Shown here one piece after another: positions 4,653-22,954 of a DNA stretch of 24,985 nt. The translations under genes were made by a program, and so were the position numbers. This DNA comes from a virus: IMG/VR virus record IMGVR_UViG_3300044641_001358, positions 1 through 24,985 of that record; one strand, given 5' to 3'. Below the pieces are notes generated by a model that saw only the letters and a program-made list of their open reading frames with translations, had not been told where the DNA came from and did not search any database. How positions within the stretch are numbered: position 1 is the stretch's first letter; each line of letters opens with the position of its first letter.

Positions 4653-5234
4653 ATGCATATAGAGTTCATCATACCAACCTACAGTAGAGTAAACCATCTA
4701 ATCACATTGATCAGTTCACTAATGGCACAATCAAATCCAAATTGGAAAGCACATATAGTTGCTGACTGTCCACCAGAAGATATTCAGAATAAAATTAAAG
4801 GTGTTGTTGATTTTTTTAACGATAAAAGAATTAAGCTAACCATATTACCAGAGAGATATAATGACTGGGGACATACACCAAGACAATATGGTGTGAATAA
4901 GTCTACAGAAGAATGGGTGATAATGACAGGAGAAGATAACTATTATGTCCCAGAGTTTGTAAATAGTATGTTAGTAGAAGGAAAGAATCAGCATTTTGTT
5001 TATTGTGATATGGTACATAACTGGATAAACCAAGAATACATTCCAATTAAAACTAAATTAAATCTTGGTCATATTGACATTGGAGCCTTTATGGTCAAGA
5101 CAAATCTGGCACAGAAGATTAAATTAAGAGTAAATGAAGAGTGGGCTGACTGGTATTTTGTTGAGGAGTTTGTTAATAAGTTTAAATACGCTAACATAAA
5201 AAAGGTAAACAAAGTATTATATGTCCACAATTAA
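4653..5234 (+). CDS. GT2-like glycosyltransferase (GT-A fold)
   Basis: 193 aa. The N-terminus (IEFIIPTYSRVNHLITLISS) is the nucleotide-sugar-binding opening of family 2 GT-A enzymes. A DxD-like metal site appears as G93-E94-D95 within TGEDNYY. The rest, with Trp-rich segments and an acidic WADWYFVEEF near the end, fits an acceptor region. It is shorter than many GT2 enzymes and lacks membrane segments, so it would act in the cytoplasm. It starts 48 nt after the small terminase gene and overlaps the next glycosyltransferase by 14 nt, forming a pair. A glycan donor or acceptor cannot be named. Confidence 0.85.
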   Translation: MHIEFIIPTYSRVNHLITLISSLMAQSNPNWKAHIVADCPPEDIQNKIKGVVDFFNDKRIKLTILPERYNDWGHTPRQYGVNKSTEEWVIMTGEDNYYVPEFVNSMLVEGKNQHFVYCDMVHNWINQEYIPIKTKLNLGHIDIGAFMVKTNLAQKIKLRVNEEWADWYFVEEFVNKFKYANIKKVNKVLYVHN

Positions 5235-5949
5235 AGTAGCAATATGTGTAGTAGCAAAAGGTGAAGACCATTATTTAAAAGAATGGCTAGACTATAATCA
5301 GAAATTAGGTTTTGATAAAGTATTATTATTTCAAAATGACTGGCGCACAGATTTGGAACATCCAATATTATTGAAAGGTATATGTGATGGCCCATCAATT
5401 CAAACACCATTATATAGCAGTATATTACAAGCTAACACTGAATATGATTGGTTGGCATTTATTGACTGTGATGAGTTTATCGTTTTAAAGAAACACAACA
5501 ACATCAAAGAACTAATAGAAGAATATAAAGATAGAACAGATGTAATTGGATTGAACTGGTTTATGTATGGGAATTTAGGTATTGAAAAGAGAGAGGGTAA
5601 TTCATTAATCAAGATGTTTACCAAAAGAAGTTCACAAATAAATCAACATATTAAAGTAATTGTGAATAAGAATGTGGATAGTCATATGATGTATCCACAT
5701 TGCACATATAAAGAATCAATGGATACAAATGGGAATAAATTCCTTGGTCCATTCAATCCTAACGGACCATCAGATGTTGCATATATAAACCACTATTATA
5801 ATAAAACAAAAGAAGATTGGATATTGAGATGTGAAAGAGGAAGAGCAGATTGTAACCTCAGAGCCACACCAGAACAATGGGACCTTGATGTGAATAATGA
5901 TAATGATATAGTTGATATGTCAGCTTATAACTTTATGTATGGCAATTGA
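5221..5949 (+). CDS. glycosyltransferase, GT92-like
   Basis: 242 aa. The N-terminus (KVAICVVAKGEDHYLKEWLD) with the following LGFDKVLLF, and the metal-binding D82-C-D84 in LAFIDCDEF, are typical of family 92 and related GT-A glycosyltransferases. Later blocks such as IGLNWFMYGNLG and the His-rich MMYPHCTYK fit the same group. It is a soluble enzyme. It overlaps the glycosyltransferase gene before it by 14 nt and the large terminase start by 11 nt, so it is embedded in the packaging operon. It probably transfers a sugar to a glycan or virion protein; the acceptor is unknown. Confidence 0.85.
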   Translation: MSTIKVAICVVAKGEDHYLKEWLDYNQKLGFDKVLLFQNDWRTDLEHPILLKGICDGPSIQTPLYSSILQANTEYDWLAFIDCDEFIVLKKHNNIKELIEEYKDRTDVIGLNWFMYGNLGIEKREGNSLIKMFTKRSSQINQHIKVIVNKNVDSHMMYPHCTYKESMDTNGNKFLGPFNPNGPSDVAYINHYYNKTKEDWILRCERGRADCNLRATPEQWDLDVNNDNDIVDMSAYNFMYGN

Positions 5950-7267
5950 TATAAATTTAACTAAAAAGCAATCTATTGCTTGGAAATTACTATTCGATGA
6001 TAAAACTAATGAGATACTTTATGGTGGATCAGCAGGCGCTGGAAAATCTTGGCTTGGTTGTTTGTGGATTGTTACACTCTGTTTAAAGTACGAGGGCATA
6101 CGTTGTCTGATCGGTAGAACAGTATTACAGCAATTAAAGCTAACCACATTAAATACGTTGTTTGAAACACTTCAAGCAATGGGATTAAAAGCAAGCGAAC
6201 ATTATACATATAATGGACAGTCCAATGTAATTACATTCTTTAACAAGAGTGAGATAATACTAAAAGATTTAGCATATCAACCATCAGATCCTAACTACGA
6301 TAGTCTAGGTGGTCTAGAACTATCAGCAGTATTCGTAGATGAAGCTGCACAAATACCACAATTAGCATACAACATCCTTAAATCACGTATTCGTTTTAAA
6401 CTAAATGAGTTTAAATTAATGCCAAAGATATTAATGACGTGTAACCCTGGACAAGTATGGCTTAAGAAAGTATTCTATCTACCATTTATAAGTGAGACAT
6501 TAGAAGAGAATAGAGCATTTGTCCCAGCATTACCATTAGATAATCCACACTTACCTGCATCTTATATTGAGATGCTTAAGTCATTACCACCAAGTCAACG
6601 TAGACGTTTACTAGAAGGTGATTGGAATTATGAGATGGAAGCTGACAACCTATTTGACTTTGATGATATATCAGCAGCAATATTTAAAGAGGCACCAAAA
6701 CCAGATGAAAAGAAATATATATCATTGGACGTAGCAAGGTTTGGTTCTGATAGGTCTGTCGCTTGCGTATGGGTAGGTTTAACGGTCGTTGAGGTGTTTG
6801 TCTATAGCAAACTATCAGCTGTTGAATTATCGTCCGAAATACGCAATCTAATAGCTAAATACGGAGTACATCCAAAGAACGTTATTGTGGATGCTGATGG
6901 AGTTGGTGGACCGGTTAGTGATATGTTAAGAGGAACAGACTTTGTCAATAACTCAAAAGCATTACACAACCAAAACTTCTTTAACCTGAAGTCACAATGT
7001 TATGTAAAACTATCTGAACTATTTAAGGAAGGGAAGATAAGCATAAACGTATTAGACACATCCTTAGTTGATGACTTGACACAAGAACTATTAGCAGTTA
7101 AATTAAAAGACGTAGATAAAGATAATAAGGTACAGGTAGGATCAAAAGACGATATGAAGAAAGTCCTTGGTAAATCACCAGATATTTCCGATGCATTGAT
7201 GATGCGTATGTACTATGAAATAAAAAACCTGAAAGCCACAGGTAGATACTCAATGGCTTACGTATAG
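5939..7267 (+). CDS. terL: terminase large subunit (ATPase and nuclease)
   Basis: 442 aa from ATG 5939; an upstream in-frame ATG at 5912 is possible, but the chosen start gives the conventional N-terminus MAIDINLTKKQ and an 11-nt overlap with the glycosyltransferase gene. Walker A is GGSAGAGKS (29-37), Walker B is VFVDEA (131-136), and a coupling motif follows at TCNPGQ (167-172). The C-terminal RNase-H-like nuclease carries Asp at 264 (SLDVARFG), 318/320 (VIVDADGVGG) and 415/418 (SPDISDAL). It is the motor and headful or site-specific nuclease that packages phage DNA through the portal. All key residues are present. Confidence 0.95.
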   Translation: MAIDINLTKKQSIAWKLLFDDKTNEILYGGSAGAGKSWLGCLWIVTLCLKYEGIRCLIGRTVLQQLKLTTLNTLFETLQAMGLKASEHYTYNGQSNVITFFNKSEIILKDLAYQPSDPNYDSLGGLELSAVFVDEAAQIPQLAYNILKSRIRFKLNEFKLMPKILMTCNPGQVWLKKVFYLPFISETLEENRAFVPALPLDNPHLPASYIEMLKSLPPSQRRRLLEGDWNYEMEADNLFDFDDISAAIFKEAPKPDEKKYISLDVARFGSDRSVACVWVGLTVVEVFVYSKLSAVELSSEIRNLIAKYGVHPKNVIVDADGVGGPVSDMLRGTDFVNNSKALHNQNFFNLKSQCYVKLSELFKEGKISINVLDTSLVDDLTQELLAVKLKDVDKDNKVQVGSKDDMKKVLGKSPDISDALMMRMYYEIKNLKATGRYSMAYV

Positions 7268-7269
7268 AT

Positions 7270-8004
7270 ATGATTAAATTTAAGATAGACGAAAAGGAAT
7301 ATATACTTCCTGAAATTATTAGCATAGAAAAGTATGCAAAAATATATAAGATAAAAGACTTATTTAGTGATGACTACTTTGCTGCAAGGTTATTAAACAT
7401 AATGACTGATGCACCAGTTGAGGACTTAATTCAATCTGATTATCAAGAAGTTAGCTATTTGGCTAATTATGTTATGTCATTAATACCGATAAATAAAGAC
7501 ATCCCATTTAAAGATAGATTTGTTTTAAACGGTGTTAATTATGGATTTTTCCCTAATTGGAAAGATTTAAGTTTTGCTGAGTTTGTAGATATGGATACCA
7601 TCTCAACCAAGAAACCAGAAGAAATTTTGGATTTACTGCATATTCTTGCAGCAATTATGTATAGACCAATTACACAAGAAACAACAGAACACGATTTTAA
7701 AATAGAAAAGTATGATGTAGATAAAATGAAACAGCGATCAGAACTGTTTAAAAAAGAGCTAGATGTGAAGTATGTTATATCAGCGCAGTTTTTTTTTATC
7801 AACTTCGTAAACAAATACTTAAATTATACCCAGCTGTCTTCGATTCAGAAGCTATCGATATGGAGCAAGGTCAAGATTTTGTGGACGATGCGCAAGGTGA
7901 TATGGTATCTAATTTTCAAAAAGCGTTCGGGTGGTATGTGGTCATCAACAGAGTTACTGGAAATGATATTACAAAACACGAAGCTGTCTTCCAAAAAACC
8001 CTGA
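7270..8004 (+). CDS. tail assembly chaperone-like protein, 0-frame product (frameshift site inside)
   Basis: 244 aa in this frame, starting 2 nt after the large terminase stop. The first 173 residues look genuine: VNYGFFPNWKDLSFAEFVDM and DLLHILAAIMYRPIT are conserved-looking helical blocks, and the part before nine T at 7789-7797 is coherent. Beyond the T-run the 0-frame reads a less natural tail (KRSGGMWSSTELLEMILQ) until a stop at 8004. The -1 frame instead gives a good globular sequence ending at 8084. Phage tail chaperones often express both a short and a frameshifted long form; here the fused form would be about 271 aa. The family name is inferred from position and the frameshift. Confidence 0.65.
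   Translation: MIKFKIDEKEYILPEIISIEKYAKIYKIKDLFSDDYFAARLLNIMTDAPVEDLIQSDYQEVSYLANYVMSLIPINKDIPFKDRFVLNGVNYGFFPNWKDLSFAEFVDMDTISTKKPEEILDLLHILAAIMYRPITQETTEHDFKIEKYDVDKMKQRSELFKKELDVKYVISAQFFFINFVNKYLNYTQLSSIQKLSIWSKVKILWTMRKVIWYLIFKKRSGGMWSSTELLEMILQNTKLSSKKP
7789..7797 (+). other. nine-T slippery site for -1 frameshift
   Basis: CAG-TTT-TTT-TTT-ATC in the 0 frame. Any T_TTT_TTT heptamer here allows tandem slippage to the -1 frame, which then stays open for 95 codons. No strong downstream stem was found; a weak CTTC/GAAG stem (7838-7851) lies about 40 nt after. A sequencing or assembly error in the homopolymer (T10 instead of T9) would give the same picture. Confidence 0.6.
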
Positions 8005-8084
8005 TTGAGATTTTAAACCAATTAACATTCCTGATACAGCACGATAAACTACAGGAACAACTTTTGAAGAAACAAAATAAATAA
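7797..8084 (+). CDS. -1 frame continuation of the tail-chaperone-like gene
   Basis: In the -1 frame the reading continues from the T-run as YQLRKQILKLYPAVFDSEAI, then DFVDDAQGDMVSNFQKAFGW, and ends in a charged helix (QEQLLKKQNK) at 8084, just 18 nt before the next gene. These 95 residues have the mixed helical character of a real domain. An in-frame ATG at 7860 exists, but it lies inside this conserved-looking stretch, so a separate gene starting there is less likely than a fused product made by frameshifting. The domain would form the T-like half of a G/GT-type tail chaperone. Confidence 0.6.
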   Translation, partial: YQLRKQILKLYPAVFDSEAIDMEQGQDFVDDAQGDMVSNFQKAFGWYVVINRVTGNDITKHEAVFQKTLIEILNQLTFLIQHDKLQEQLLKKQNK

Positions 8085-8095
8085 ATTTATATTTT
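8063..8095 (+). promoter_or_regulatory. promoter-like site before the duplicated-domain gene
   Basis: TTTG at 8063-8066, 21 nt, then TATATTTT at 8088-8095, ending 7 nt before ATG 8103. Both elements are near the Bacteroidetes consensus, with a slightly long spacer and the last base changed. It overlaps the end of the frameshifted gene. Confidence 0.45.
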
Positions 8096-8102
8096 ATAAT
8101 AG

Positions 8103-9107
8103 ATGACAAATTACTATCAAATATTACAGGATTTAAAAGGAATCGCCTATTATCATTACCAAATCAATTCATTTGGTGTTGGTGATATTACGCAGATTAC
8201 TATGGATATTGAGACCAAGAAGGAACCTAAGTACACAAAAATGTATGTTGTCCCTGGTACTACAACCCTAAATCAAAACGTAGTTAGTTATCAGTTCTCA
8301 ATAATTATACTTGACAGGATAGACGATGATTACTCAAATCAACGTGATGTTATGTCTGACACGTTAGAAATAACCAAAGACATATTCACAATCCTATATC
8401 AGTCATACACAACCGAATTTGGTAATTTCACATTATATTATGAACCATCTTGGGGACCTAATGTAACACCGTTCTTGGAAAGGTTTGAAACAATCCTAGG
8501 TGGATGGACGCTTAACATTACAATTAACGAACCATTTGATTACAATAGCTGTGTATTACCGATATCCGGATTAACATTACCAACATCGGTAAACAAAGTT
8601 AACTACAAGCAAATTATTGAGGACTTAGAAGATGTGGCTAATACCCACCTACAAATCAATTCATTTGGTTATGGGGACATAACTCAGTTAACAATGGATG
8701 TCATTACAAAGCAAGAACCAGAATACACTAGGATGTATGTGGTTCCAGCTGACACCATACTAAATGAAAACCAACTAACATTAAATTTTACAATAATAAT
8801 AGCAGATAGATTAGATGACGATTATTCCAATCAACAAGAAGTACTAGGTGACACATTGGAAATATGCAAAGATATATTCACTGTGTTATATTTATCAGAA
8901 TACGAAACTGAGTGGGGTGCCACCGTTGAACCATTTTTAGAAGCATATGAAACAGTATTATGCGGATGGTCAATGAACATCACCTTAACTCAACCATTCG
9001 ATTATAATAGATGTATACTACCAGAACGAAGCTTTGTACCTGGTTATAAATGGTCTGAATTGGCAGAACTATGGAAGGATGTCAATGACAACTGGAAAGA
9101 TGTATAA
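8103..9107 (+). CDS. structural protein made of two copies of one domain
   Basis: 334 aa. Residues 3-153 and 167-307 are two versions of the same domain. Shared blocks in order are QINSFGxGDITQ, TMD, EPxYTxMYVVP, DDDYSNQ, DTLEI, KDIFT, PFLE, GGW/CGW, NIT and PFDYNxC-x-LP. Copy 1 carries about 10 extra residues around 104-118. The tail after 310 (YKWSELAELWKDVNDNWKDV) is a short amphipathic helix. Its position between the large terminase and the fibre-like gene suggests a tail completion or minor tail protein. The fused pair could occupy two subunit sites in a ring or mediate a symmetry change. The exact role is inferred from context. Confidence 0.85.
   Translation: MTNYYQILQDLKGIAYYHYQINSFGVGDITQITMDIETKKEPKYTKMYVVPGTTTLNQNVVSYQFSIIILDRIDDDYSNQRDVMSDTLEITKDIFTILYQSYTTEFGNFTLYYEPSWGPNVTPFLERFETILGGWTLNITINEPFDYNSCVLPISGLTLPTSVNKVNYKQIIEDLEDVANTHLQINSFGYGDITQLTMDVITKQEPEYTRMYVVPADTILNENQLTLNFTIIIADRLDDDYSNQQEVLGDTLEICKDIFTVLYLSEYETEWGATVEPFLEAYETVLCGWSMNITLTQPFDYNRCILPERSFVPGYKWSELAELWKDVNDNWKDV
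8109..9023 (+). repeat. tandem duplicated domain inside the 8103 gene
   Basis: The two protein copies are encoded at about 8109-8561 and 8601-9023. Amino-acid similarity is obvious throughout. The DNA has diverged apart from short matches such as CAAATCAATTCATTTGGT, so the duplication is old and both copies appear to be under selection. Confidence 0.8.
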
Positions 9108-9128: not shown

Positions 9129-12100
9129 ATGGGTAATTTAACTAATCAATATGTAAGTCAGTCCTTTCAAGGATTATTGAAACTTGATAACAGCACTACT
9201 GGTGTAACATCCACGTTACAATATGTTCAAGATGGACTTGGCAATAATATTCCAATGCAGGTATCAACATCATCTGTTGTTATCACCGGTTCATTAATTG
9301 GATCAGCATCATACGCTACTCAAGCGCTATCTGCATCTTATGCACCAGACACAACTAATACTGGTTCACTAGTAAGCACTTCATCGTTTAACGCTTATAC
9401 ATCAAGTAATGATAGTAAGGTTAATTCGTTGATTGCTGCAACAGGAAGTTTTGTAACAGAAGCTGAGAGCGGATCATTTATGATTACTGGTAGCGTTGCT
9501 GGAGATACACTAACGTTTACTAAAGGTAACGGTTCACAGTTTAACTTACAAGTTAATACAGGCTCATTACCAGCTGGTGTTATTTCAGGTTCTCAACAAA
9601 TAACTAATTTAGGATTTGCCACTACTAGTTCTGTTAATCAGAAATTAGACACCGGCTCATTCAACACATATACATCAAGCAATGATAGTAAAGTTAATTC
9701 ACTTATCGCTAGCACTGGGTCTTATGCTACTACTTCATCGGTTACTTCGCTTTCGCAAAGCATAGCTATTACAGACTTAGCACAGAACAATAGATTAAAT
9801 TCAATAGAAGGTGTAACTGGTTCTTTCGTAACAGAAACTGAATCTGGTTCATTTATGGTAACAGGTAGTGCATCAGGTAATGTACTTACATTTACAAAAG
9901 GTAACGGTACTACTTTTAACTTATCAGTTGCTACAGGTAGTCAAAATAGAGATGGTTTAATTACCACAGGTTCTGTTGGTGGTACTCAATCAATCACAGG
10001 AAGTTTAGGTATTAGTGGTACACTTACTGCATTATCTGCATCAATTACTTATTTAGAAACAGTTTACGAAACTGCTTCAGTAATATACTCAAGTGGTTCA
10101 AACCAATTTGGTGACGCATCAAACGACACACAAACATTATGGGGTACAGTTAACTTACCATCAGGACCATTAGTTATAACAGGTAGCGTAACAGCATCAG
10201 CTGGATTTGTTGGTAACCTAACAGGTACTGCATCATATGCTACAAACGCATTGAGTGCAAGTAATGCTGTAAACTCAGACACTTCTATATCATCAAGCTT
10301 TTCACAGAACGCGACATCTGCAAGTCAAGCACAAAATGCTAACACAGCATCTTACGTGTTGAATGCAGTTTCATCATCATATTCAAATTTTGCTGTAAGC
10401 GCATCACAAGCACAGAATGCAGTATCTGCATCTTATGCGCCTGATACAACAAACACAGGTTCATTAGTAGTAAGTGTTGTACGTGGTCCAATAACATTTG
10501 AAGATGATGTTGTAGTAACAAAAGGTGATGGTACAACAAACACGTTCACAATTAATAATGTAGTTCAATCTGACAGTTCATCATATTCAAATTTTGCAGT
10601 ATCTGCATCTCAAGCACAAAATACTGTAAGTAGTTCGTTTGCAACTAATGCTGGTTCAGCATCATACGCACCAACAGTTATTCCTGATTGGGTTGCAACA
10701 ACAGGTTCAAACGTATTTGTTGGTCAACAAACAATTAATAATGATTTAACAATTTCATCAACAAACCCATTTGGTACGTTTGTTAATATGGTTAGTACTG
10801 GTACTACTTCATTTAATTTAGATAGTCCACTTACTCAGTTCCAATCAAATGGACAGATTATATTTACTAATACGTTAGCATCAACAGGTTCAAGTGATAT
10901 TACTTTCTTGACACAAAATGGTGGTGATATAATTCTTAATACTTCTAATTCAGGTTCTGTAGCAATTACAGGTAGTGTAAATATATCTGGTTCGGTTGTT
11001 GACATTAAAGCACCAATAGTAAGAATTACAGGTAGCTTAATTTTAAGCGGTTCTGCTGGCGTTGAATTAGATGTTAAAGGTGATGTAACAATCACTGGTA
11101 GTTTAAATGTATCTGGTTCACAATCAATTACACGCGATTTAAGATTATTTTCATCAGCGTCATATGGTGGTGTCGTTCCTGGTTTTTATATTACAGCGTC
11201 ATCACCGGTATCTCAATCAAATATTATATTTGCAAGTTTAGCCGGTGCCGATGGACAAGCACCTCTCGTCGCTAATCAAACTGGTTCAATCATAATATCT
11301 GGTTCAAATAATATTTTATTTGCTAGTAATAGAATTTCGTCTTCAACAGCGATCGGATATATAGGCAATAATAATATAGTTGGAACAATTCCAACATTAA
11401 ATCCCACTTCTTTACATTTTCCATCAATTTCTAATAATCAACTTCAAGCAGGAGTAGTATTTAATTTTACAACAAGTTCATTATCCCCAGCAAGTTTTAC
11501 TAATAATTTAGTTTATAGTAGTGTAAATGTAAACTCTCAAAGTGGTAGTATAGCGTTTGGTAATAACCTTATATTATTAGGACCTACAATAAATGCACAA
11601 ACAACAACACTTGGTTTACAAACAAGTGTATCTAGTAATGCACTTATTGGAACCGCATTAACACTAAATCAAAATAGTTCATCAATACTATATCAACAAA
11701 ATATAGGTGGTTTGACTGTTACTAATAATTATTCATCATCTGTATCAACAGCTGTTAATAATATTACAATGACACAAAACTTGTTTAACGGTTCTACACT
11801 TACTCTGGTTGTAAGTGGTTCAAATACAGCTAATAGAAGAACGTTTAACTCAAATTTAATTTCAGGTAGAAGTAATGAAATTAACTCTAATCAGAGTGGT
11901 TCTTCAGCTGGTCACTTAGTTGCTACAGCATTACTAGGCCAGAACTTAATTGTGTCAGCATCAAATACATCAACAACATCTGGTGGTACTGTAATAGTAG
12001 GTAGATTCAATGCTACCGGTTCATTACAAGAAAGTGCACAAGATACGGTATTCGTTGTAGGTAGTGGTGCAAGTGCTGGGGCTAGAAGAAACTCATTAAA

Positions 12101-12461
12101 AATTGATAGCTCAGGTAATACAGAATTAACTGGTTCAGTTAGTGTTACTGGTTCATTTAAAAGTCTTGGTAATGTTCAAATTACAGGTTCATTAAATGTA
12201 TCTGCTGATATATTATTTGCTTCAGGTTCTAATAAAACAATTGGAACATTTGTATTAGATGGTGCCAATCCTGGTGCTGCAACAGTATCAAATAGTTTAG
12301 TTACAGCAACTAGTTTAATATTCTTAACAAAACAGACAAATGTACATAGTGGTAACGGAACAGTAAGTGTAACATCAAAAGGTGCAGGAACATTCAATGT
12401 AACATCAAACCATAACGGAGACACAGATACAGTGGCTTACTTAATTATAAATCCAGCATAA
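9129..12461 (+). CDS. large Ser/Thr-rich repetitive fibre-like structural protein
   Basis: 1110 aa, dominated by Ser, Thr, Gly and Asn with recurring modules such as ITGSLNVSGS, SASYAPDTTNTGSLV, SYSNFAVSASQAQN and SGSFMITGSVAGDTLTF. The repeats imply an elongated beta-rich trimeric fibre or decoration shaft. The last about 80 residues form a distinct domain (GTFVLDGANPGAATVSNSLV up to a final DTVAYLIINPA) of a type I recall at the C-terminus of many Bacteroidetes phage and prophage structural proteins. It is probably a tail or head fibre involved in adsorption. Its TAA overlaps the next ATG by one base (TAATG), so translation is coupled. Fibre location (head or tail) cannot be decided. Confidence 0.85.
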   Translation: MGNLTNQYVSQSFQGLLKLDNSTTGVTSTLQYVQDGLGNNIPMQVSTSSVVITGSLIGSASYATQALSASYAPDTTNTGSLVSTSSFNAYTSSNDSKVNSLIAATGSFVTEAESGSFMITGSVAGDTLTFTKGNGSQFNLQVNTGSLPAGVISGSQQITNLGFATTSSVNQKLDTGSFNTYTSSNDSKVNSLIASTGSYATTSSVTSLSQSIAITDLAQNNRLNSIEGVTGSFVTETESGSFMVTGSASGNVLTFTKGNGTTFNLSVATGSQNRDGLITTGSVGGTQSITGSLGISGTLTALSASITYLETVYETASVIYSSGSNQFGDASNDTQTLWGTVNLPSGPLVITGSVTASAGFVGNLTGTASYATNALSASNAVNSDTSISSSFSQNATSASQAQNANTASYVLNAVSSSYSNFAVSASQAQNAVSASYAPDTTNTGSLVVSVVRGPITFEDDVVVTKGDGTTNTFTINNVVQSDSSSYSNFAVSASQAQNTVSSSFATNAGSASYAPTVIPDWVATTGSNVFVGQQTINNDLTISSTNPFGTFVNMVSTGTTSFNLDSPLTQFQSNGQIIFTNTLASTGSSDITFLTQNGGDIILNTSNSGSVAITGSVNISGSVVDIKAPIVRITGSLILSGSAGVELDVKGDVTITGSLNVSGSQSITRDLRLFSSASYGGVVPGFYITASSPVSQSNIIFASLAGADGQAPLVANQTGSIIISGSNNILFASNRISSSTAIGYIGNNNIVGTIPTLNPTSLHFPSISNNQLQAGVVFNFTTSSLSPASFTNNLVYSSVNVNSQSGSIAFGNNLILLGPTINAQTTTLGLQTSVSSNALIGTALTLNQNSSSILYQQNIGGLTVTNNYSSSVSTAVNNITMTQNLFNGSTLTLVVSGSNTANRRTFNSNLISGRSNEINSNQSGSSAGHLVATALLGQNLIVSASNTSTTSGGTVIVGRFNATGSLQESAQDTVFVVGSGASAGARRNSLKIDSSGNTELTGSVSVTGSFKSLGNVQITGSLNVSADILFASGSNKTIGTFVLDGANPGAATVSNSLVTATSLIFLTKQTNVHSGNGTVSVTSKGAGTFNVTSNHNGDTDTVAYLIINPA
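9333..10470 (+). repeat. near-identical repeat segments in the fibre-like gene
   Basis: Pairs of related DNA segments include 9333-9375 with 10428-10470 (SASYAPDTTNTGSLV), 9396-9437 with 9669-9710 (YTSSNDSKVNSLIA), and 10374-10393 with 10578-10597, which is identical over 20 nt (SSYSNFA). These could recombine and lengthen or shorten the fibre. Confidence 0.65.
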
Positions 12462-14534: not shown

Positions 14535-17500
14535 ATGGCCACACAGCAACAAACGGTTTTACGTGTTCAAACTAACATACCAGATAATACTATTGTAATC
14601 CAATCAGGATACACAGCTGTAATAACTGGTGATACATTTGGTATTTCATATTCAGGAACTGGTACAGCTAATGATCCGTATATTGGAACAACATCAGGTA
14701 TTTCTGAATTTACTTTTAGTATTAATGATAGAAACGGTATTTTATATTTTGAGTATTCTGGTTCAGGTGCAAACATATTATATGTTAATAATGTAGTACA
14801 AAGAAATGATTCAAACACAACAGTATCAGGAACGATTAATGTAAACGATACAGATATTGTTCGATTATATTTTGGTAATACTGGTAGTAAAATAATTAAT
14901 CTATATTTTGTTGAGACTGAAGAGGTTGTATATAAATACGAATTATTAGACCTATACAGTGACATACCAATTAAAATAAATAAATCATTTGCTGAATTGC
15001 AAGATATTGGAAAACGTAATTCTGACTACTCAATTGGTTTACAAATACCTGGTAGTAAAAAGAATAACAGATTCTTTGAAAGCTTTTTTAATGTGGACGT
15101 AGATACATTATATTTCAATCCATTGGCAAGAGTGCCTTGTAATGTTTTAGTTAACGATGAGTCATATTTTAATGGTTATTTAAAGCTAAATAAAATCTCC
15201 GTGTTGAATAGTAAAATCGAATATGATATTACATTATTTTCAAGTGTCGGTGATTTATTTGGTAAGATAGGTAATAACCTATTAAAGGATTTAAATTTTA
15301 CAGATACACAATATGGTATCAATCACGAGTTTCAACCATATGAAGTACAGAATTGGGATAGTAATCCATATTCAATTGATAATCCACCAGGATACTTTTA
15401 TCCAATTGTTCACAATGGATATGAATATAGTGGAGACACAGTTAATTTAAGTGGTGGAACAGTGGCTCAACAGACAAGATTATATACATCAACAATTGTA
15501 AGTGGATATACATCATATGCTGCAGCATATGCTGCCGGTGTTAAAAGATATAGATTAAATTCACCACAGGATGGATTATTAGATAATCAATTAAAACCTG
15601 CACTGAATATTAAAAACCTAATTGAATTAATGTTCAAGACATATGGTTATACAATTGATTCAGACTTTTTCAATACACCTTGGTTTAAGATGTTATATAT
15701 GTATGGATACTTTAGTTCTGATGCAACTAAATTTTCCTATAAATCACCTGTACCACAAACATTAGCATTAGGAGGTGTTAATGTAATCTTCGTTGAGACA
15801 TACGTAGATAGCAGTTCATTTCCTTGTGGTACGCAATATATTAAAACAGATAGAACATATACCATATATGTTGTAAAAGCTGGAACAGGAACACCTTGTT
15901 TATGTGCCGATGAGATTAATTTAAATCTTGTCTTTCAATTCTATCCTTGTTATGGTGGTCCATCGATCGATGAAATCGTACCTATAACTATAGCACCAAA
16001 TACAACTGGTACAACATATTCTTGGGTAAGTAATGAATATGTTGATTGTGGAAGTGGTTGTCCGTTTAGCTTAGAATACAGACAAAATTTTGTAGAATTA
16101 ACAACTGGTAACGTATCAATCTCACCCGCAGCTTTATCATATCTCCCTACAATACCAAACACAACAACATTATTTGTAGATGGAGACTATGTTGATTTTG
16201 GTTTGGTAATAGATCCACTTATAAAACAAATTGATTTTCTTTCATCTATAGCAAAGAAGTTTAATCTTGTGTTTATTCCTAATCCTGACAGACCTACTGA
16301 AATTAAAATAGAACCATATTCATACTATATTGGAACTGGTAACGTATATGATTGGACTAATAAGCTATCATATGATAAAGGATTTACAGTTGAACCGGCA
16401 CAAAATTATGTTGAGTCTGAACTTATACTTACTGATTTAGAGGATGGTGATTTTGGTAACAAGACATTTAAGGATCAAAATAATAGAATATATGGTCAAA
16501 ACTTTGTATACAATCAAACTGATTTTAAATCACAAACAAAAAAAATCGAGACAATATTTTCACCAGAATTATTGAGACAATGGGATACTCCAGATACAGC
16601 ACCTAATGGTGAAATTAAACTACCTCTAGGAATCAATTACGCGGCCTCTAGTTCGTCTCAATCTAGTGGAGGTACAGAGAAGGTCAGTTGGCAATATAAG
16701 GGTGTTAAAACAAAGCCTAAGCTGTTTTATAACTTAGGTTACTTTAACCCATTTTTAGATACATTAGGTGAAGTATTTACTTCTGTAGGTTCTATTTTAA
16801 CTAATAAGGTATATATTGCTGCTTCTGATGGCACTGGTCCACTAGGTAGAGAGGTTATACCAATCATAAGTCACAGTATGCCAATTGGTAATGATGACGC
16901 AAATAAAATTAATAATGATTCTATATCAGTATTGTTCAATTCAGAACAACCGGTAGATATTGGTGTCACACCATTTGATGTTTTTACTGAAAATGATTCA
17001 TATAATTTATTCTATTCCAATAGAGTAAATAATTTATACAACAAAAATACAAGGTTTTTGGGTGGATATTTTGATATAAAACTATCTGACATTGAGAACC
17101 TTAATCCTAATGATATAATTAAAATTAAAGACCAGTATTTTACGTGGAATAAAATAGACGCTTTTAATTTAACAAATCCTGAATTGACAAAAGTTGAGTT
17201 AATTCAATTCAACAACCAGGTAAATACATATCCAACTAGATATTTTCAATACTATTATTGTGATAATACTAATGTAATATTCAAGTTTAAAACGGATATG
17301 ACTAATCCATCATTAAGTGGAACTTCTTATGGGTGGTCAATATTCTATGACTATTCAATTGGTGTTTTAAATAATGCTGGTGTAACTCCTTTAACAGGCT
17401 TTACTAGTTGTGTTAGAGATGCAGCACAACAATTTGGCTATGGATATGTACCTTATACAATTTATGAAGTGACTGAAGCTGATTATAATGCAACTGGTAT

Positions 17501-19250
17501 AACTAGAAATTATGATACATTATGGTTAGAATTAAGTGATAATTATAATAACGTTTCTACAAAAGGTGATTTAAATCAATTTAATTTTCCAACATATGTA
17601 TATGGTTCAACTCTAGAAACGTATAATTTATTTGAAGATTGTGCACAATTTAATGCTGCAGCAACAGCATATGATATAGACCTAGGTTCATCAACATTCT
17701 ATGGTCCACCAGTTACACCGACACCAACACCAACTGCTACACCTGCACCTACTCCAACTCCTACACCTGCAATGAGAGGTTCATTGATAATGTCATTTGA
17801 TGAGTTAGTTCCTGATAGAGGTATTGATAATTACACTGTTACTGTTAATGGTCAAGATAGAGATGTACATTTTACAGAGATAGATAATTTATATTCAACA
17901 AATTTAAATCCTGGAGATGTTGTTGTTATTACATTAATAACTGATTCTACAATTACAAAAACTCTTGATGTATATAGAAGAGATTATACAACTGATGACC
18001 AAGGTAATGATATGGGTATTAGAGATACATATATTACAGGATCTACATCAAATACTGGTACTACAATATCTGTAACATTTACTGCAACCACAATTGCACA
18101 AGATTATAATTTTGAATATAGAGTTACTGCTATAACAACAGGAATAGCACCAACACCAACTCCAACAGCGGTACCAACTAATGGTACAAACGGTTCTGTT
18201 AATCATCATATCAGTTTATATCCAAATAATAAAATATTAATATTTGGTAATTTTACTCAGTTAGATGGTTCATTTAACACAGATGGAATAGCTAAATTTA
18301 ATACAGATGGTACTTTAGATACATCAGTAGATAGTAATTCAAATATTGGTTTACAAATACCTGGTGGTGGTGTTTTACATACCAATGAAACTATGACAAC
18401 GGGTCTTGGTACAATAAGTCTTGGTGGAGGAAATTTTGCTTATAATGGTACCAGAAGAGAAACTGATGGTACATTCAATGTTAGTACAAATATTACCTAT
18501 GCTGTAACTGGACTTACAAATTCACGAATGATTATTTATCCAGCTAGTAATAACAAATTTTATATATCCGGACAAGGATTATATTCTGGAACAACAACAC
18601 CATCAAATTTAGTTAGAATTAATGCTGGTTCAACATATACAATTGACACAGGATTTAATGCATACCCACTTGAAGATTTGGTCGCTTATTTCCCAGTGTA
18701 TGAACAAACCGATGGTAAAATATTAATTGGTGGTGTATACTCAGGACAAACTGGAATACCAGCAGGTTATTCATCAATAACTAGATATAATTCAAATGGT
18801 TCATTAGACACGTCATTTAGTGGTAATCCAATATGTAGAGTATTTACTGCAGATATAAAACAACATACAAATGGTAATATATATTATGTTGGTTATAGCT
18901 TTGGTATATTAGATCAGTATGGTACACCAATTGTTGGGGATGTTCCTTTTGCAAGCAGAGTAGATAATCTAGATATACAAAGTGACGGTAAAGCTATTCT
19001 TGGTGGTATATATTCGTTTGGCCCATCATTCACACCAGTAAACGGAATATGTAGAGTTAATACTAATGGTACATTAGATACTACATTTAATGCTGGTGGT
19101 TCAGGATTTGTGGGTGCATCAATTTATGATGTAAAAGTACAGCCGGACGATAAGATTATTGTTGGTGGTTCTTTCAGCACATATAACGGTTTTACATATA
19201 ACAATATAATAAGACTTAATGCAGATGGAAGTATTGACACATCCTTTTAA
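14535..19250 (+). CDS. large modular tail protein with C-terminal beta-propeller
   Basis: 1571 aa. Residues about 1-125 are a beta-rich domain. About 130-1055 form the body, with KSFAELQDIGKRNSDYSIGL and LARVPCNVLVNDESYFNGYL blocks of the sort found in distal-tail or hub proteins of Bacteroidetes phages. A Pro-Thr linker (about 1058-1079) leads to a beta domain (1080-1204), and a second short linker (about 1205-1215) leads to the end module. Residues about 1220-1571 contain seven blades built on GKI-x-[IV]GG and NxDGxLDTSF, the delta-60 (DUF5122) beta-propeller pattern, ending on a half repeat (ADGSIDTSF) that could close the ring. It probably forms the tail tip and binds the host surface. 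The propeller count is by eye. Confidence 0.85.
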   Translation: MATQQQTVLRVQTNIPDNTIVIQSGYTAVITGDTFGISYSGTGTANDPYIGTTSGISEFTFSINDRNGILYFEYSGSGANILYVNNVVQRNDSNTTVSGTINVNDTDIVRLYFGNTGSKIINLYFVETEEVVYKYELLDLYSDIPIKINKSFAELQDIGKRNSDYSIGLQIPGSKKNNRFFESFFNVDVDTLYFNPLARVPCNVLVNDESYFNGYLKLNKISVLNSKIEYDITLFSSVGDLFGKIGNNLLKDLNFTDTQYGINHEFQPYEVQNWDSNPYSIDNPPGYFYPIVHNGYEYSGDTVNLSGGTVAQQTRLYTSTIVSGYTSYAAAYAAGVKRYRLNSPQDGLLDNQLKPALNIKNLIELMFKTYGYTIDSDFFNTPWFKMLYMYGYFSSDATKFSYKSPVPQTLALGGVNVIFVETYVDSSSFPCGTQYIKTDRTYTIYVVKAGTGTPCLCADEINLNLVFQFYPCYGGPSIDEIVPITIAPNTTGTTYSWVSNEYVDCGSGCPFSLEYRQNFVELTTGNVSISPAALSYLPTIPNTTTLFVDGDYVDFGLVIDPLIKQIDFLSSIAKKFNLVFIPNPDRPTEIKIEPYSYYIGTGNVYDWTNKLSYDKGFTVEPAQNYVESELILTDLEDGDFGNKTFKDQNNRIYGQNFVYNQTDFKSQTKKIETIFSPELLRQWDTPDTAPNGEIKLPLGINYAASSSSQSSGGTEKVSWQYKGVKTKPKLFYNLGYFNPFLDTLGEVFTSVGSILTNKVYIAASDGTGPLGREVIPIISHSMPIGNDDANKINNDSISVLFNSEQPVDIGVTPFDVFTENDSYNLFYSNRVNNLYNKNTRFLGGYFDIKLSDIENLNPNDIIKIKDQYFTWNKIDAFNLTNPELTKVELIQFNNQVNTYPTRYFQYYYCDNTNVIFKFKTDMTNPSLSGTSYGWSIFYDYSIGVLNNAGVTPLTGFTSCVRDAAQQFGYGYVPYTIYEVTEADYNATGITRNYDTLWLELSDNYNNVSTKGDLNQFNFPTYVYGSTLETYNLFEDCAQFNAAATAYDIDLGSSTFYGPPVTPTPTPTATPAPTPTPTPAMRGSLIMSFDELVPDRGIDNYTVTVNGQDRDVHFTEIDNLYSTNLNPGDVVVITLITDSTITKTLDVYRRDYTTDDQGNDMGIRDTYITGSTSNTGTTISVTFTATTIAQDYNFEYRVTAITTGIAPTPTPTAVPTNGTNGSVNHHISLYPNNKILIFGNFTQLDGSFNTDGIAKFNTDGTLDTSVDSNSNIGLQIPGGGVLHTNETMTTGLGTISLGGGNFAYNGTRRETDGTFNVSTNITYAVTGLTNSRMIIYPASNNKFYISGQGLYSGTTTPSNLVRINAGSTYTIDTGFNAYPLEDLVAYFPVYEQTDGKILIGGVYSGQTGIPAGYSSITRYNSNGSLDTSFSGNPICRVFTADIKQHTNGNIYYVGYSFGILDQYGTPIVGDVPFASRVDNLDIQSDGKAILGGIYSFGPSFTPVNGICRVNTNGTLDTTFNAGGSGFVGASIYDVKVQPDDKIIVGGSFSTYNGFTYNNIIRLNADGSIDTSF
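17706..17771 (+). repeat. Pro-Thr linker in the 1571-aa tail protein
   Basis: ACC/CCA-rich DNA encoding a (TP)n run with interspersed Ala (TPTPTPTATPAPTPTPTPA). It separates the tail body from a beta domain. Confidence 0.8.
18147..18182 (+). repeat. second Pro-Thr linker before the beta-propeller
   Basis: Encodes APTPTPTAVPT. It joins the beta domain to the propeller and resembles the linkers in the next gene. Confidence 0.75.
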
Positions 19251-19269
19251 ATTTAAAGAAAAGATAAAA

Positions 19270-19277
19270 TATATTTA
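19270..19277 (+). promoter_or_regulatory. TATATTTA-N5-ATG motif
   Basis: TATATTTA ends 5 nt before ATG 19283. The 16 nt 19270-19285 equal 4205-4220. No TTG element sits at 17-23 nt upstream. Confidence 0.45.
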
Positions 19278-19282
19278 TTAAT

Positions 19283-20353
19283 ATGGGAAGGAAATATATA
19301 AAGCAGATAATAAATCAGAACTTCATCTATCCAAATGATAATGTAGCTGAATATGACGTTGAGATTGTACACGATATTAATAACAATTGTGTATCAGGAA
19401 GTGTAAGTAACTTCAGCGCAACAACCGTATCATCAACTGGTATTACGCTTTCATTGAATTATACTTGGTTATTAAACAATGCTGAAGCTTGGATTAGAAA
19501 TTCAAACCTATTAGCGTTTTGGTCATTACACTGTATAGTACCTGGTCAAAGTTTTTATAAGCCTTGGAGGCTTATTCAGAGTAGAAGTAGTAGTAATACT
19601 GCACTTATAAGTAATGCTGAAGTGGGTGTTTTAACAACCATTACCCCATCACAAATGGGTGTATCGTCTTTTACAAATGGTACCTATTATTTTGAACTTA
19701 GAATGATTGGTCACAGATGTATCTTTCCAATATGTCTTGATTTAACTATTAGTACAATTCCAACTCCAACTCCAACACCAACAGCAACAGGTGCACCACC
19801 AACACCCACACCTACGCCGACACCTACAGCAACAGGTGGTGTATGTTGTGTATCTGGTGTAACATTAAACGTAACAGATACTGGATGGATTAAATATACG
19901 CTATGTGATGGTACACAAGAATATAAAGAATATACAACAACTGGTAATAAAACAATCCCAGAATGTATTCAACAAAATAGCGTTAACTATGGTTTCCCAT
20001 TTGCTAATTTGGCAGAGTTTACGGTTACTGGTGCTGGTACACAATGTGGAGGAGTTTGTGTAACACCGACGCCTACACCAACGCCAACAGCTACAGTACC
20101 TGGAGGTTTAACAGCATATGGTGGATGTGGTAGAGGTAATAGTGTTGCAGACTCTTGTAATGATGCTGGAATAAATAATAGAACATTCTATTCTGATTGT
20201 GCTCCTGGTTCACTTGGTAATGGATGTTATGTATATACTGACACTGTTCCTAATGCATTAATAGGATTTACCAACGTATTTATGAGTGGTGCTAACTATG
20301 ATGTTAACTCAGCAACAGGCGTAATAACAGGATTGTCATCAGTACAATGTTAA
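19283..20353 (+). CDS. modular structural protein with three domains on Pro-Thr linkers
   Basis: 356 aa. Residues 1-158 form a beta-rich N-terminal domain that presumably attaches to the virion. Linker 1 (about 159-186) is a double (TP)n-ATG run. A central domain (187-259) carries paired Cys (VCCVSG, CGGVC). Linker 2 (about 261-273) leads to a Cys-rich C-terminal domain (274-356) with GGCGRGNSVADSC, YSDCAPGSLGNGCYVYTD and a terminal Cys. The Cys pairs may form disulfides, which suits an exposed adsorption domain. Linkers of the same kind occur in the gene before it, so both proteins draw on a common modular kit. It starts after the TATATTTA-N5-ATG motif. Confidence 0.85.
   Translation: MGRKYIKQIINQNFIYPNDNVAEYDVEIVHDINNNCVSGSVSNFSATTVSSTGITLSLNYTWLLNNAEAWIRNSNLLAFWSLHCIVPGQSFYKPWRLIQSRSSSNTALISNAEVGVLTTITPSQMGVSSFTNGTYYFELRMIGHRCIFPICLDLTISTIPTPTPTPTATGAPPTPTPTPTPTATGGVCCVSGVTLNVTDTGWIKYTLCDGTQEYKEYTTTGNKTIPECIQQNSVNYGFPFANLAEFTVTGAGTQCGGVCVTPTPTPTPTATVPGGLTAYGGCGRGNSVADSCNDAGINNRTFYSDCAPGSLGNGCYVYTDTVPNALIGFTNVFMSGANYDVNSATGVITGLSSVQC
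19760..19840 (+). repeat. Pro-Thr linker 1 of the 356-aa protein
   Basis: Two (TP)n-T-ATG runs in tandem (TPTPTPTATG, then TPTPTPTPTATGG). Codons vary (CCA, CCC, CCT, CCG), so it is protein-level conserved rather than a simple DNA microsatellite. Confidence 0.75.
20063..20101 (+). repeat. Pro-Thr linker 2 of the 356-aa protein
   Basis: Encodes TPTPTPTPTATVP before the C-terminal Cys-rich domain. Confidence 0.75.
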
Positions 20354-20572: not shown

Positions 20573-22954
20573 ATGGCAAAAAAGAAAATTGAGATAGTTC
20601 TTGATGTTGATGGTAAACCTATTGATGTGGCAATTGATGCTACATTAAACTTAAAGCAACAGTTTAGAGAATTAACAAAAGAGTTAAACAAAACCAAAGA
20701 AGGTACCAAGGAATTTGAATTACTATCTACCAAGTTAGGTGATGTAAGAGATAAAATGGAGACTACTACAGCTAAGTCAAAAGACTTGTTTGGTAGTTTG
20801 TCATTATTACCTGGGCCTGTTGGTGCGTTTGCTGGTACTGTAGATAGTGCAATTGGTAGTTTAAAACTATTCACATCATTTTCATTCAAGGATTTAAAAT
20901 TCCAGTTAGGTGAGACATTAAACGATTTTAAAGATATTGCTAGTAACATTGGTAAAGCCACTGGTATTAGTAAGGTTTATACTGTTATTAACAATGCATT
21001 AGCCAAGTCGTTTGTTGCAGTAGGTATTGGAGAACAAGCCGCTGCTACTGGTGCTAGGGCTTTTGCTGCCGCATTAACAGCGACAGGTATAGGCGCATTG
21101 GTTGTATTATTGGGATTGGCTGCAACTGCATTATATGATATGGCTACTGGCGAGGATGAAGCCGCAGCAGCAACAGCTAAATTAAACAGAGAACTTGAAA
21201 GTCAAAATACATTACTGGATTTGAATCAAAAATCTGCTAAACGTAGAAATGCTGAGACAATTGCTGTAATGAAAGCACAGGGTAAATCTGAAAAAGAAAT
21301 CAGAGATACCATAAATAATCAAAACTATGCTGATTATCAATTAGCATTTGAAGCTGAAACGAACGCAAGAAAACTTTATAATGACAATTTAAATAAAGCA
21401 AATGCTGAGGATTTAAAAAAGCTTGCGGATAACTTAGCTAAAAAAGAAGAGGCTAGAAAAGATGCGTATTCAAATTATATTGTTGCTGGTAGAAATGGTC
21501 AAGCTGCTGAGTTAGCTGAACAGAAACAAGCACAAGACAAATCTTTACAAGCACAACAAGCATACCAACAAAAAGTTGAAGCAGACAGAAAAGCAGCTGC
21601 TGAGATGTTGTTAGATTTACAACAAGAAAATTCAGTACTTGCAATTAAGGATGAGAGAAAGAGACAAGACCAAGAATTATTAAATCAAAAAGCTAATGAA
21701 GAAACAAAAATTAAATCATTATTAATTAGCGAGCAGAAGAAAGCTGAGTTACTTGCACAGGTTACAACAAAATATAATGCAAAGGCTGATGATTTAAAAA
21801 TAAAACGTGAAGAAGATGATAAGAAGAAGGAACAAGAAAGATTAGAAAAGGTAGCTGAGTTTGTTGAAAAGCTTAGAGATATTGAATTAAATGCAATTGC
21901 TGATACACAAGCTAAAGCAAAAGCTGAAGCACAAAAAGGATTTGAGGACACTAAAAAAGATTTAGACAAAGCATTAGCTGATAAATTAATATCACAAGAT
22001 CAGTATAATACTGCAATCAAAAATGCTACTACTACATTAAACAATGAACTTAAAAAGATTGATGACGATAAAATAAAAGAGGATGATGATAAACGTATTA
22101 AGAAACTTGATGACGAACTTAAATTCTTACAGATCAAAGGTGAAGCATTACGTGCCGGTACACAAGCGTTTTATGATAATCAACGTGCAATATTAAATGC
22201 TGCTGAACAACGTGAATTAGCTGATACTACATTAACTGAAGAAGCAAAAACTGCAATTAAAGCAAAGTATGTTGAAGCAAGAAAGAAATTAGGTGAACAA
22301 GAGTTTGCTGCGAATGCTGCGGTTGTTTCACAAACATTGGATGCGGTTGCAAAATTGGCTGGTGCTATTGCTAGTTCATATGATGAAGAAGCTAAAACAA
22401 GTAAAGATGCGTTTGAGAAAAGAAAGAAATTACAAATCGCTACAGCATTAATGTCTGCGGCTTCTGGTATAATTCAAATCTTAACACAACCATCTACATT
22501 ACCATCACCAGCTGACTGGATTGTAAAAGGGATAAATGCACTTGCTGTAGGTATATCAACTAAAGTTCAAATTGATAATATTAAGAAAACACAATTTGGA
22601 GGTGGTGGTGCTGCTGCTGCACCAGAAAGTTTAGGTAAGAACTATGCTGATGGTGGTATGATTAACGGACCAAGACACGCAGCAGGTGGAGTTATGATTA
22701 ATGCTGAAGGTGGTGAGGCGGTAATGACAAGAGGTGCTGTAACTATGTTTGCACCTATGTTATCTATGATGAATCAAATGGGTGGTGGAACATCGTTTGC
22801 TGGTGGCGCATTAGGTGCAAGTCCAGATGCACCAACTTTAAATCAACCATCAGTAAATCAACAACCTATGATAATGAAAACATATGTTGTATCAAACGAA
22901 TTAACAACAGAATCAGAAAGACAAGCGAGGTTAAAAGACCTTTCTACACTTTGA
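20573..22954 (+). CDS. tape measure protein
   Basis: 793 aa. It has a typical tape-measure start (KKKIEIVLDVDGKPIDVAID), helical heptads, and a hydrophobic segment at about 165-187 (TATGIGALVVLLGLAATALY) that could insert into the host membrane during DNA entry. A long Lys/Glu/Ala coiled coil spans about 200-580. A second hydrophobic region occupies about 620-665, and a Gly-rich end reads NYADGGMINGPRHAAGGVMI. Its length sets the tail length; 793 residues suit a siphovirus tail of roughly 120 nm, by the usual rule of about 0.15 nm per residue. It sits downstream of the tail-tip genes, the reverse of the common order. Confidence 0.9.
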   Translation: MAKKKIEIVLDVDGKPIDVAIDATLNLKQQFRELTKELNKTKEGTKEFELLSTKLGDVRDKMETTTAKSKDLFGSLSLLPGPVGAFAGTVDSAIGSLKLFTSFSFKDLKFQLGETLNDFKDIASNIGKATGISKVYTVINNALAKSFVAVGIGEQAAATGARAFAAALTATGIGALVVLLGLAATALYDMATGEDEAAAATAKLNRELESQNTLLDLNQKSAKRRNAETIAVMKAQGKSEKEIRDTINNQNYADYQLAFEAETNARKLYNDNLNKANAEDLKKLADNLAKKEEARKDAYSNYIVAGRNGQAAELAEQKQAQDKSLQAQQAYQQKVEADRKAAAEMLLDLQQENSVLAIKDERKRQDQELLNQKANEETKIKSLLISEQKKAELLAQVTTKYNAKADDLKIKREEDDKKKEQERLEKVAEFVEKLRDIELNAIADTQAKAKAEAQKGFEDTKKDLDKALADKLISQDQYNTAIKNATTTLNNELKKIDDDKIKEDDDKRIKKLDDELKFLQIKGEALRAGTQAFYDNQRAILNAAEQRELADTTLTEEAKTAIKAKYVEARKKLGEQEFAANAAVVSQTLDAVAKLAGAIASSYDEEAKTSKDAFEKRKKLQIATALMSAASGIIQILTQPSTLPSPADWIVKGINALAVGISTKVQIDNIKKTQFGGGGAAAAPESLGKNYADGGMINGPRHAAGGVMINAEGGEAVMTRGAVTMFAPMLSMMNQMGGGTSFAGGALGASPDAPTLNQPSVNQQPMIMKTYVVSNELTTESERQARLKDLSTL

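Follow-up and report, generated by a model that had tools for sequence, protein, structure and literature searches.

A probable −1 frameshifted, tail-chaperone-like phage gene with two C-terminal ends that appear to be under selection

Introduction

Frameshifted tail chaperones are already known from phages. In lambda, one gene of the tail module yields two products, G and GT, with a common N-terminus; a −1 slip at the heptamer G_GGA_AAG gives the longer product an extra C-terminal domain, G itself ends five codons later, and the gene lies between the tail tube and tape measure genes. In P2, E and E+E' are made by a −1 slip at TTTTTTG, a T-rich heptamer located late in the first frame, and E ends six codons past the site and adjoins the tape measure gene.

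The gene described here was found in a stretch of viral DNA of 24,985 nucleotides (IMG/VR record IMGVR_UViG_3300044641_001358, positions 1 to 24,985), hereafter referred to as the window. Like lambda G/GT, it is one gene of the tail module that would yield two products with a common N-terminus through a −1 slip at a heptamer, the longer one with an extra C-terminal domain, and like P2 E/E+E' it would slip on a T-rich heptamer late in the first frame. It differs from both in the length of the unshifted product, which continues for 68 apparently selected codons after a T_TTT_TTT site, and in its location after the terminase large subunit gene (terL); sequence similarity to lambda is undetectable, and none was found to P2. 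Based on sequence comparison, we consider it likely that the gene encodes a G/GT-like tail chaperone that is subject to −1 frameshifting and has two C-termini under selection. The novelty is the long, apparently selected unshifted tail, as the unshifted products of lambda and P2, the two systems measured here, end within 5–6 codons. The open-licence literature searched yielded general reviews and no report of this slip-site gene family.

The slip site and its two reading frames

The original prediction placed a −1 frameshift at a nine-T run in the gene that follows the large terminase, with the better-looking sequence continuing in the −1 frame for 95 codons to 8084. All of these coordinates were recovered when the open reading frames were re-read, and the homologues agree with the reading. 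The ORF at 7270–8004 (+ strand) encodes 244 aa and contains the nine-T run (T9) at exactly 7789–7797, in frame (CAG TTT TTT TTT ATC); this is the longest homopolymer of the window. Following the run, the 0 frame reaches its stop at 8002–8004 after 68 sense codons, and the −1 frame stops at 8082–8084 after 95. The −1 frame opens only at 7752, so it forms no separate long ORF, and the next ORF begins at 8103. The features of the gene are listed below.

7270–7797, + strand: shared N-terminal domain of 176 residues, present in both products (57–100% identity across 37 loci; pLDDT about 82)
7789–7797, + strand: T9 run with the slippery heptamer T_TTT_TTT at 7791–7797 (0-frame codons NNT TTT TTT), in frame at 86 family-1 and 38 family-2 junctions
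7798–8004, + strand: 0-frame tail of 68 codons and stop, giving the unshifted product of 244 aa (83 relatives without a stop, suppressed synonymous change, identity above dead-frame controls)
7797–8084, + strand: −1-frame tail of 95 codons and stop, mostly helical, giving the shifted product of 271 aa (conserved in all loci)
7798–8001, + strand: apparent dual-coding stretch in which the 0 and −1 frames are both used (stop density, synonymous change, recoding)

Conservation of the slip site in family 1

When IMG/VR was scanned with residues 1–176, 37 loci were returned, and the same arrangement was present at all 36 that extend to the junction. Scanning with profiles of the two halves identified 155 IMG/VR loci having both parts, and every one of them has its second part in the −1 frame relative to the first. 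The T9 junction of the window recurs unchanged at loci L002 and L003, which come from two further metagenomes. The slip-site gene is shared by this uncultivated phage and over a hundred relatives, which probably infect Bacteroidetes.

The original prediction held that T_TTT_TTT suits programmed −1 slippage, and it named as competing outcomes a ten-T run giving one continuous frame and homologues conserved in the 0-frame tail and not in the −1 tail. The heptamer was found in frame at 86 of 86 distinct junctions of the window gene and its relatives (family 1). The run has nine T in 71 of these, seven in 14 and ten in one, which still needs a −1 shift, and no relative's run brings both parts into a single frame. 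The −1 tail is conserved in all relatives, and the 0-frame tail as well. The single ten-T run occurs naturally at L091:1848-2600 (CTT TTT TTT TTC), where the −1 relation is kept since the run is offset against the codons.

TTC accounts for 27.5% of the upstream (N-domain) Phe codons, yet the junctions are always T_TTT_TTT. Ahead of the two invariant TTT codons stands TTT, ACT, TCT, CAT, CGT, AGT or CTT; the amino acid of this first codon varies while its third base is always T, and on a tree of 77 sequences seven changes of this codon are required, at least five of them on well supported branches. As the first codon's amino acid varies under a constant third base and TTC is common elsewhere, the pattern is what would be expected from selection on the heptamer itself.

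A second family and the cultured phage P12024S

With the AF2 model of the 0-frame product, matches to 36 viral models were obtained at E below 1e-3, including that of gene 38 of the Nonlabens (Persicivirga) phage P12024S. Gene 38 directly follows terL and carries its T9 as ATA CTT TTT TTT TAT; its −1 frame runs on as LSFRERLRDLYPELY..., overlapping the separately annotated ORF 39. Genes 38 and 39 (phrog_32199 and phrog_38404) resemble the window gene in having a homologous N domain and −1 tail, a T9 run and a place after terL. Unlike the window gene, the 0-frame tail of P12024S extends only 25 codons past the heptamer, and the locus is annotated as two unrelated hypothetical proteins. When the profiles of family 1 and of this second family (family 2) were compared, the hhalign probability was 99.6% for the N domains and 96.3% for the −1 tails.

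Family 2 comprises 38 distinct loci (P12024S and 37 others), all of which have the same in-frame heptamer, with T9 in 37 and T10 in one. Its overlap is also free of 0-frame stops. In the group with a 55-codon 0-frame tail, the observed/expected ratio of synonymous change was 0.13 in the overlap vs 0.73 after it; in the 79/84-codon group, the divergence after the overlap was too small to serve as a control. By this comparison the −1 tail is the older of the two, as it is common to both families, and the 0-frame tail looks like an overprinted addition of varying length.

PHROGs enters phrog_32199 and phrog_38404 as separate families of no known function, and the comparison offers a likely function for both. 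At P12024S (L162) 7869-8563, the two look like halves of one frameshifted gene, and the family of 55 residues corresponds to a truncated gene call. Gene callers thus split or truncate the slip-site gene.

Apparent dual coding after the slip site

The original prediction expected both products to carry substantial, different tails. The finding that the 0-frame tail is conserved too bears this out and constitutes the strongest part of the results. No 0-frame stop was observed in the overlap across 83 sequences (32 clusters under 80% nt identity), i.e., 0.000 stops per codon, compared with 0.077 for the same relative frame in the N domain and 0.149 after the overlap; the other frame of the overlap had 0.103. 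Upon random synonymous recoding of the −1 tail with the family codon usage, an equally long open 0 frame was obtained with a mean P = 0.007 per sequence. Stop-making transitions were 0/99 in the overlap, vs 21% and 46% in the controls.

Synonymous change in the −1 frame drops to 0.4–0.8 of expectation after the slip site, except at codons 38–44, and rebounds to 1.1–1.6 of expectation just past the 0-frame stop (observed/expected 0.68 in the overlap vs 1.32 just after). Identity was 62% in the 0 frame and 66% in the −1 frame, with dead-frame controls at 42–52%. The 0 frame extends 62–72 codons past the site in family 1. Because the 0 frame is kept stop-free and synonymous change is suppressed until the 0-frame stop, about 68 codons appear to be dual-coding, with both C-terminal ends preserved by selection.

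A 0 frame that is merely stop-free, for the sake of ribosome movement or of coupling to the next gene, with an irrelevant amino acid sequence, is an explanation that we regard as unlikely, though it has the most in its favour among the alternatives. The strongest signal is indeed the avoidance of stops, the NN/NS ratios (OLGenie-like) did not separate the overlap from the control, the 0-frame tail was modelled at low confidence (pLDDT 36–73), and its length in family 2 ranges from 16 to 84 codons. Given that the NN/NS ratios were undiscriminating, the analysis was based on the density of stops, the rate of synonymous change and profiles along the sequence. Synonymous changes that create no stop are also reduced, however, and radical 0-frame replacements (0.154) are depleted beyond conservative ones (0.218), giving a ratio of 0.71 against 0.89 and 0.95 in the controls. 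Furthermore, the stop falls at 68 codons in most family-1 members, a position partly dictated by a conserved Leu-Asn of the −1 frame. With undiscriminating NN/NS ratios and a poor model on one side and the depletion of radical changes on the other, the importance of the 0-frame amino acids is less certain than that of openness, and we infer a role for the 0-frame tail. If both frames are selected, the shift would choose between two functional protein ends rather than add one, which makes the gene a natural system for testing overprinting.

Probable mechanism of the frame change

A stimulatory structure or an upstream Shine-Dalgarno-like element is usual for programmed −1 frameshifting, and neither is obligatory. 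Downstream of the site, no consensus RNA fold was found in 30 sequences, the z score was about 0 in the window, and no conserved stimulatory hairpin was detected. The junctions are most simply read as U_UUU_UUU sites on which two Phe-tRNAs slip by −1 in tandem; their re-pairing after the slip is perfect. Most ribosomes would stay in frame and produce the 244-residue protein; some, with two phenylalanyl-tRNAs on T_TTT_TTT, would slip back by one base and produce the 271-residue protein, which would end in a different, helical tail. The two products would have 176 residues in common, and the slip rate would set their ratio. U_UU.Y counts among the better −1 tetramers in E. coli (PMC4066793).

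Alternatively, the RNA polymerase could add a U on the T9 run, and the second frame would then be read from the edited mRNA. Such transcriptional slippage is a real rival, since in many bacteria runs of nine are prone to slippage and selection against A/T runs becomes evident at that length (PMC1088944), and it would suit both the prevalence of T9 (71 of the 86 family-1 junctions and 37 of the 38 in family 2, the other being T10) and the failure to find a conserved stimulatory structure. The 14 junctions with only seven T, which belong to several lineages and retain the exact register for tandem ribosomal slippage, speak against it as the main route. We therefore rate it as rather improbable, and infer that the slippage is ribosomal.

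The −1 tail

Coding conservation in the −1 frame begins right at the slip site, from tail position 1. Invariant residues are found along the whole length of the tail (R4, P12, F15, G45, W46, N51, N56, D57, K60, H61, N74 and Q75), and third-position divergence is normal past the overlap. This bears on the view that the −1 part is an independent gene initiated internally, which is how P12024S_39 is annotated; in the window, an ATG at 7860 opens a 74-codon ORF that would suit such a start. The residues preceding it (YQLRKEIFKLFP.VFD, with the invariant R4, P12 and F15) are nevertheless as conserved as the rest, straight from the slip site, and the −1 relation holds in 155/155 loci. Internal initiation was dropped on these two grounds as highly improbable.

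Homopolymers are error-prone, yet an artefact of sequencing or assembly, like decay of the gene, has a negligible probability and was rejected, given that independently assembled metagenomes and a cultured phage share the site, that T7 variants exist and that both tails are conserved.

Structural models and the tail-chaperone reading

Separate models were made of the 0-frame product and of the −1 tail. In the AF2 model, the N domain consists of two β-hairpin plus helix units (pLDDT about 82). For the window protein, no informative family was recovered from Pfam, NCBIfam or PHROGs; the head-tail adaptor phrog_187 (E 0.05) and similar weak matches were taken as chance. The fused protein had no match in the annotated phage records and none in GTDB genomes, and the 0-frame product had no Foldseek match in the PDB.

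The original prediction described the gene as tail-chaperone-like. This is a plausible reading, short of proof. Profile comparison (hhalign) with the HK97, lambda and P2 chaperones showed no similarity, and one Acinetobacter phage chaperone reached a probability of only 24.5%. In a second structural look, the HK97 gp13/gp14 chaperone (PDB 2ob9) ranked first among 162 solved chains, but its score carries too little weight by itself: against N domain residues 1–73 it gave Z 3.4 and rmsd 4.0 over 72 aligned residues, and unrelated folds reach such scores. The chains listed for the −1 tail model in such a second look were all helical and unrelated. The place typical of G/GT, between the tail tube and tape measure genes, is not that of the present gene, and the tape measure gene is not adjacent.

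On comparative evidence, the layout matches that of G/GT, with two products having a common N-terminus and the longer one arising via a −1 shift. The location in the tail module, between terL and the tail-terminator-like gene, together with the weak HK97 chaperone fold match, suggests a tail chaperone, and it is plausible that the gene works like a G/GT chaperone; membership by homology is not claimed. On the model of lambda G and GT, binding to the tape measure protein would be the task of the shared part, and the −1 tail would bring in the tail tube subunit. In its widest form, the proposal is that a large unrecognised phage group, probably of Bacteroidetes, uses an unaided U_UUU_UUU site to pick between two functional C-terminal domains encoded by the same 55–84 codons of a tail chaperone gene, with an overprinted, lineage-variable domain in the 0 frame and an ancestral one in the −1 frame; we hold the case for and against this wider proposal to be evenly balanced.

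Neighbouring genes and host

The genes surrounding the slip-site gene are as follows.

5912–7267, + strand: terminase large subunit, directly upstream (upstream in 83/83 family-1 loci)
8103–9107, + strand: downstream neighbour, probably tail-terminator-like, matching phrog_30964 (the P12024S_41 family; downstream in 82/82 family-1 and 33/36 family-2 loci)
20573–22954, + strand: probable tape measure protein, which lies downstream at a distance of 12.5 kb from the frameshift gene (matches to phrog_9483 and phrog_1538 at E about 3e-5 to 6e-5)

The best annotated matches of the terminase were those of Flavobacterium phage 11b (48.5%) and Cellulophaga phage phi10:1 (42.7%). By its terminase sequence, the window phage groups with Bacteroidetes phages, which suggests a host in that phylum.

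Several further observations were made on the neighbouring ORFs. The ORF at 8103-9107 displays a tandem domain duplication, with two similar halves of about 150 residues each, whereas P12024S gene 41 is a single copy of 138 residues. It is followed at 9129-12461 by a protein of 1110 residues, repetitive and rich in Ser/Thr/Gly (SGSLNVSGS, ASYALSASYA), which is probably structural or a fibre. Two adjacent large proteins at 14535-20353 contain proline-threonine linkers of the TPTPTPT type, and the first of them also ends in NTDGTLDTSF-type repeats. Just upstream of the terminase, at 4653-5949, two glycosyltransferase-like ORFs overlap each other and the start of terL.
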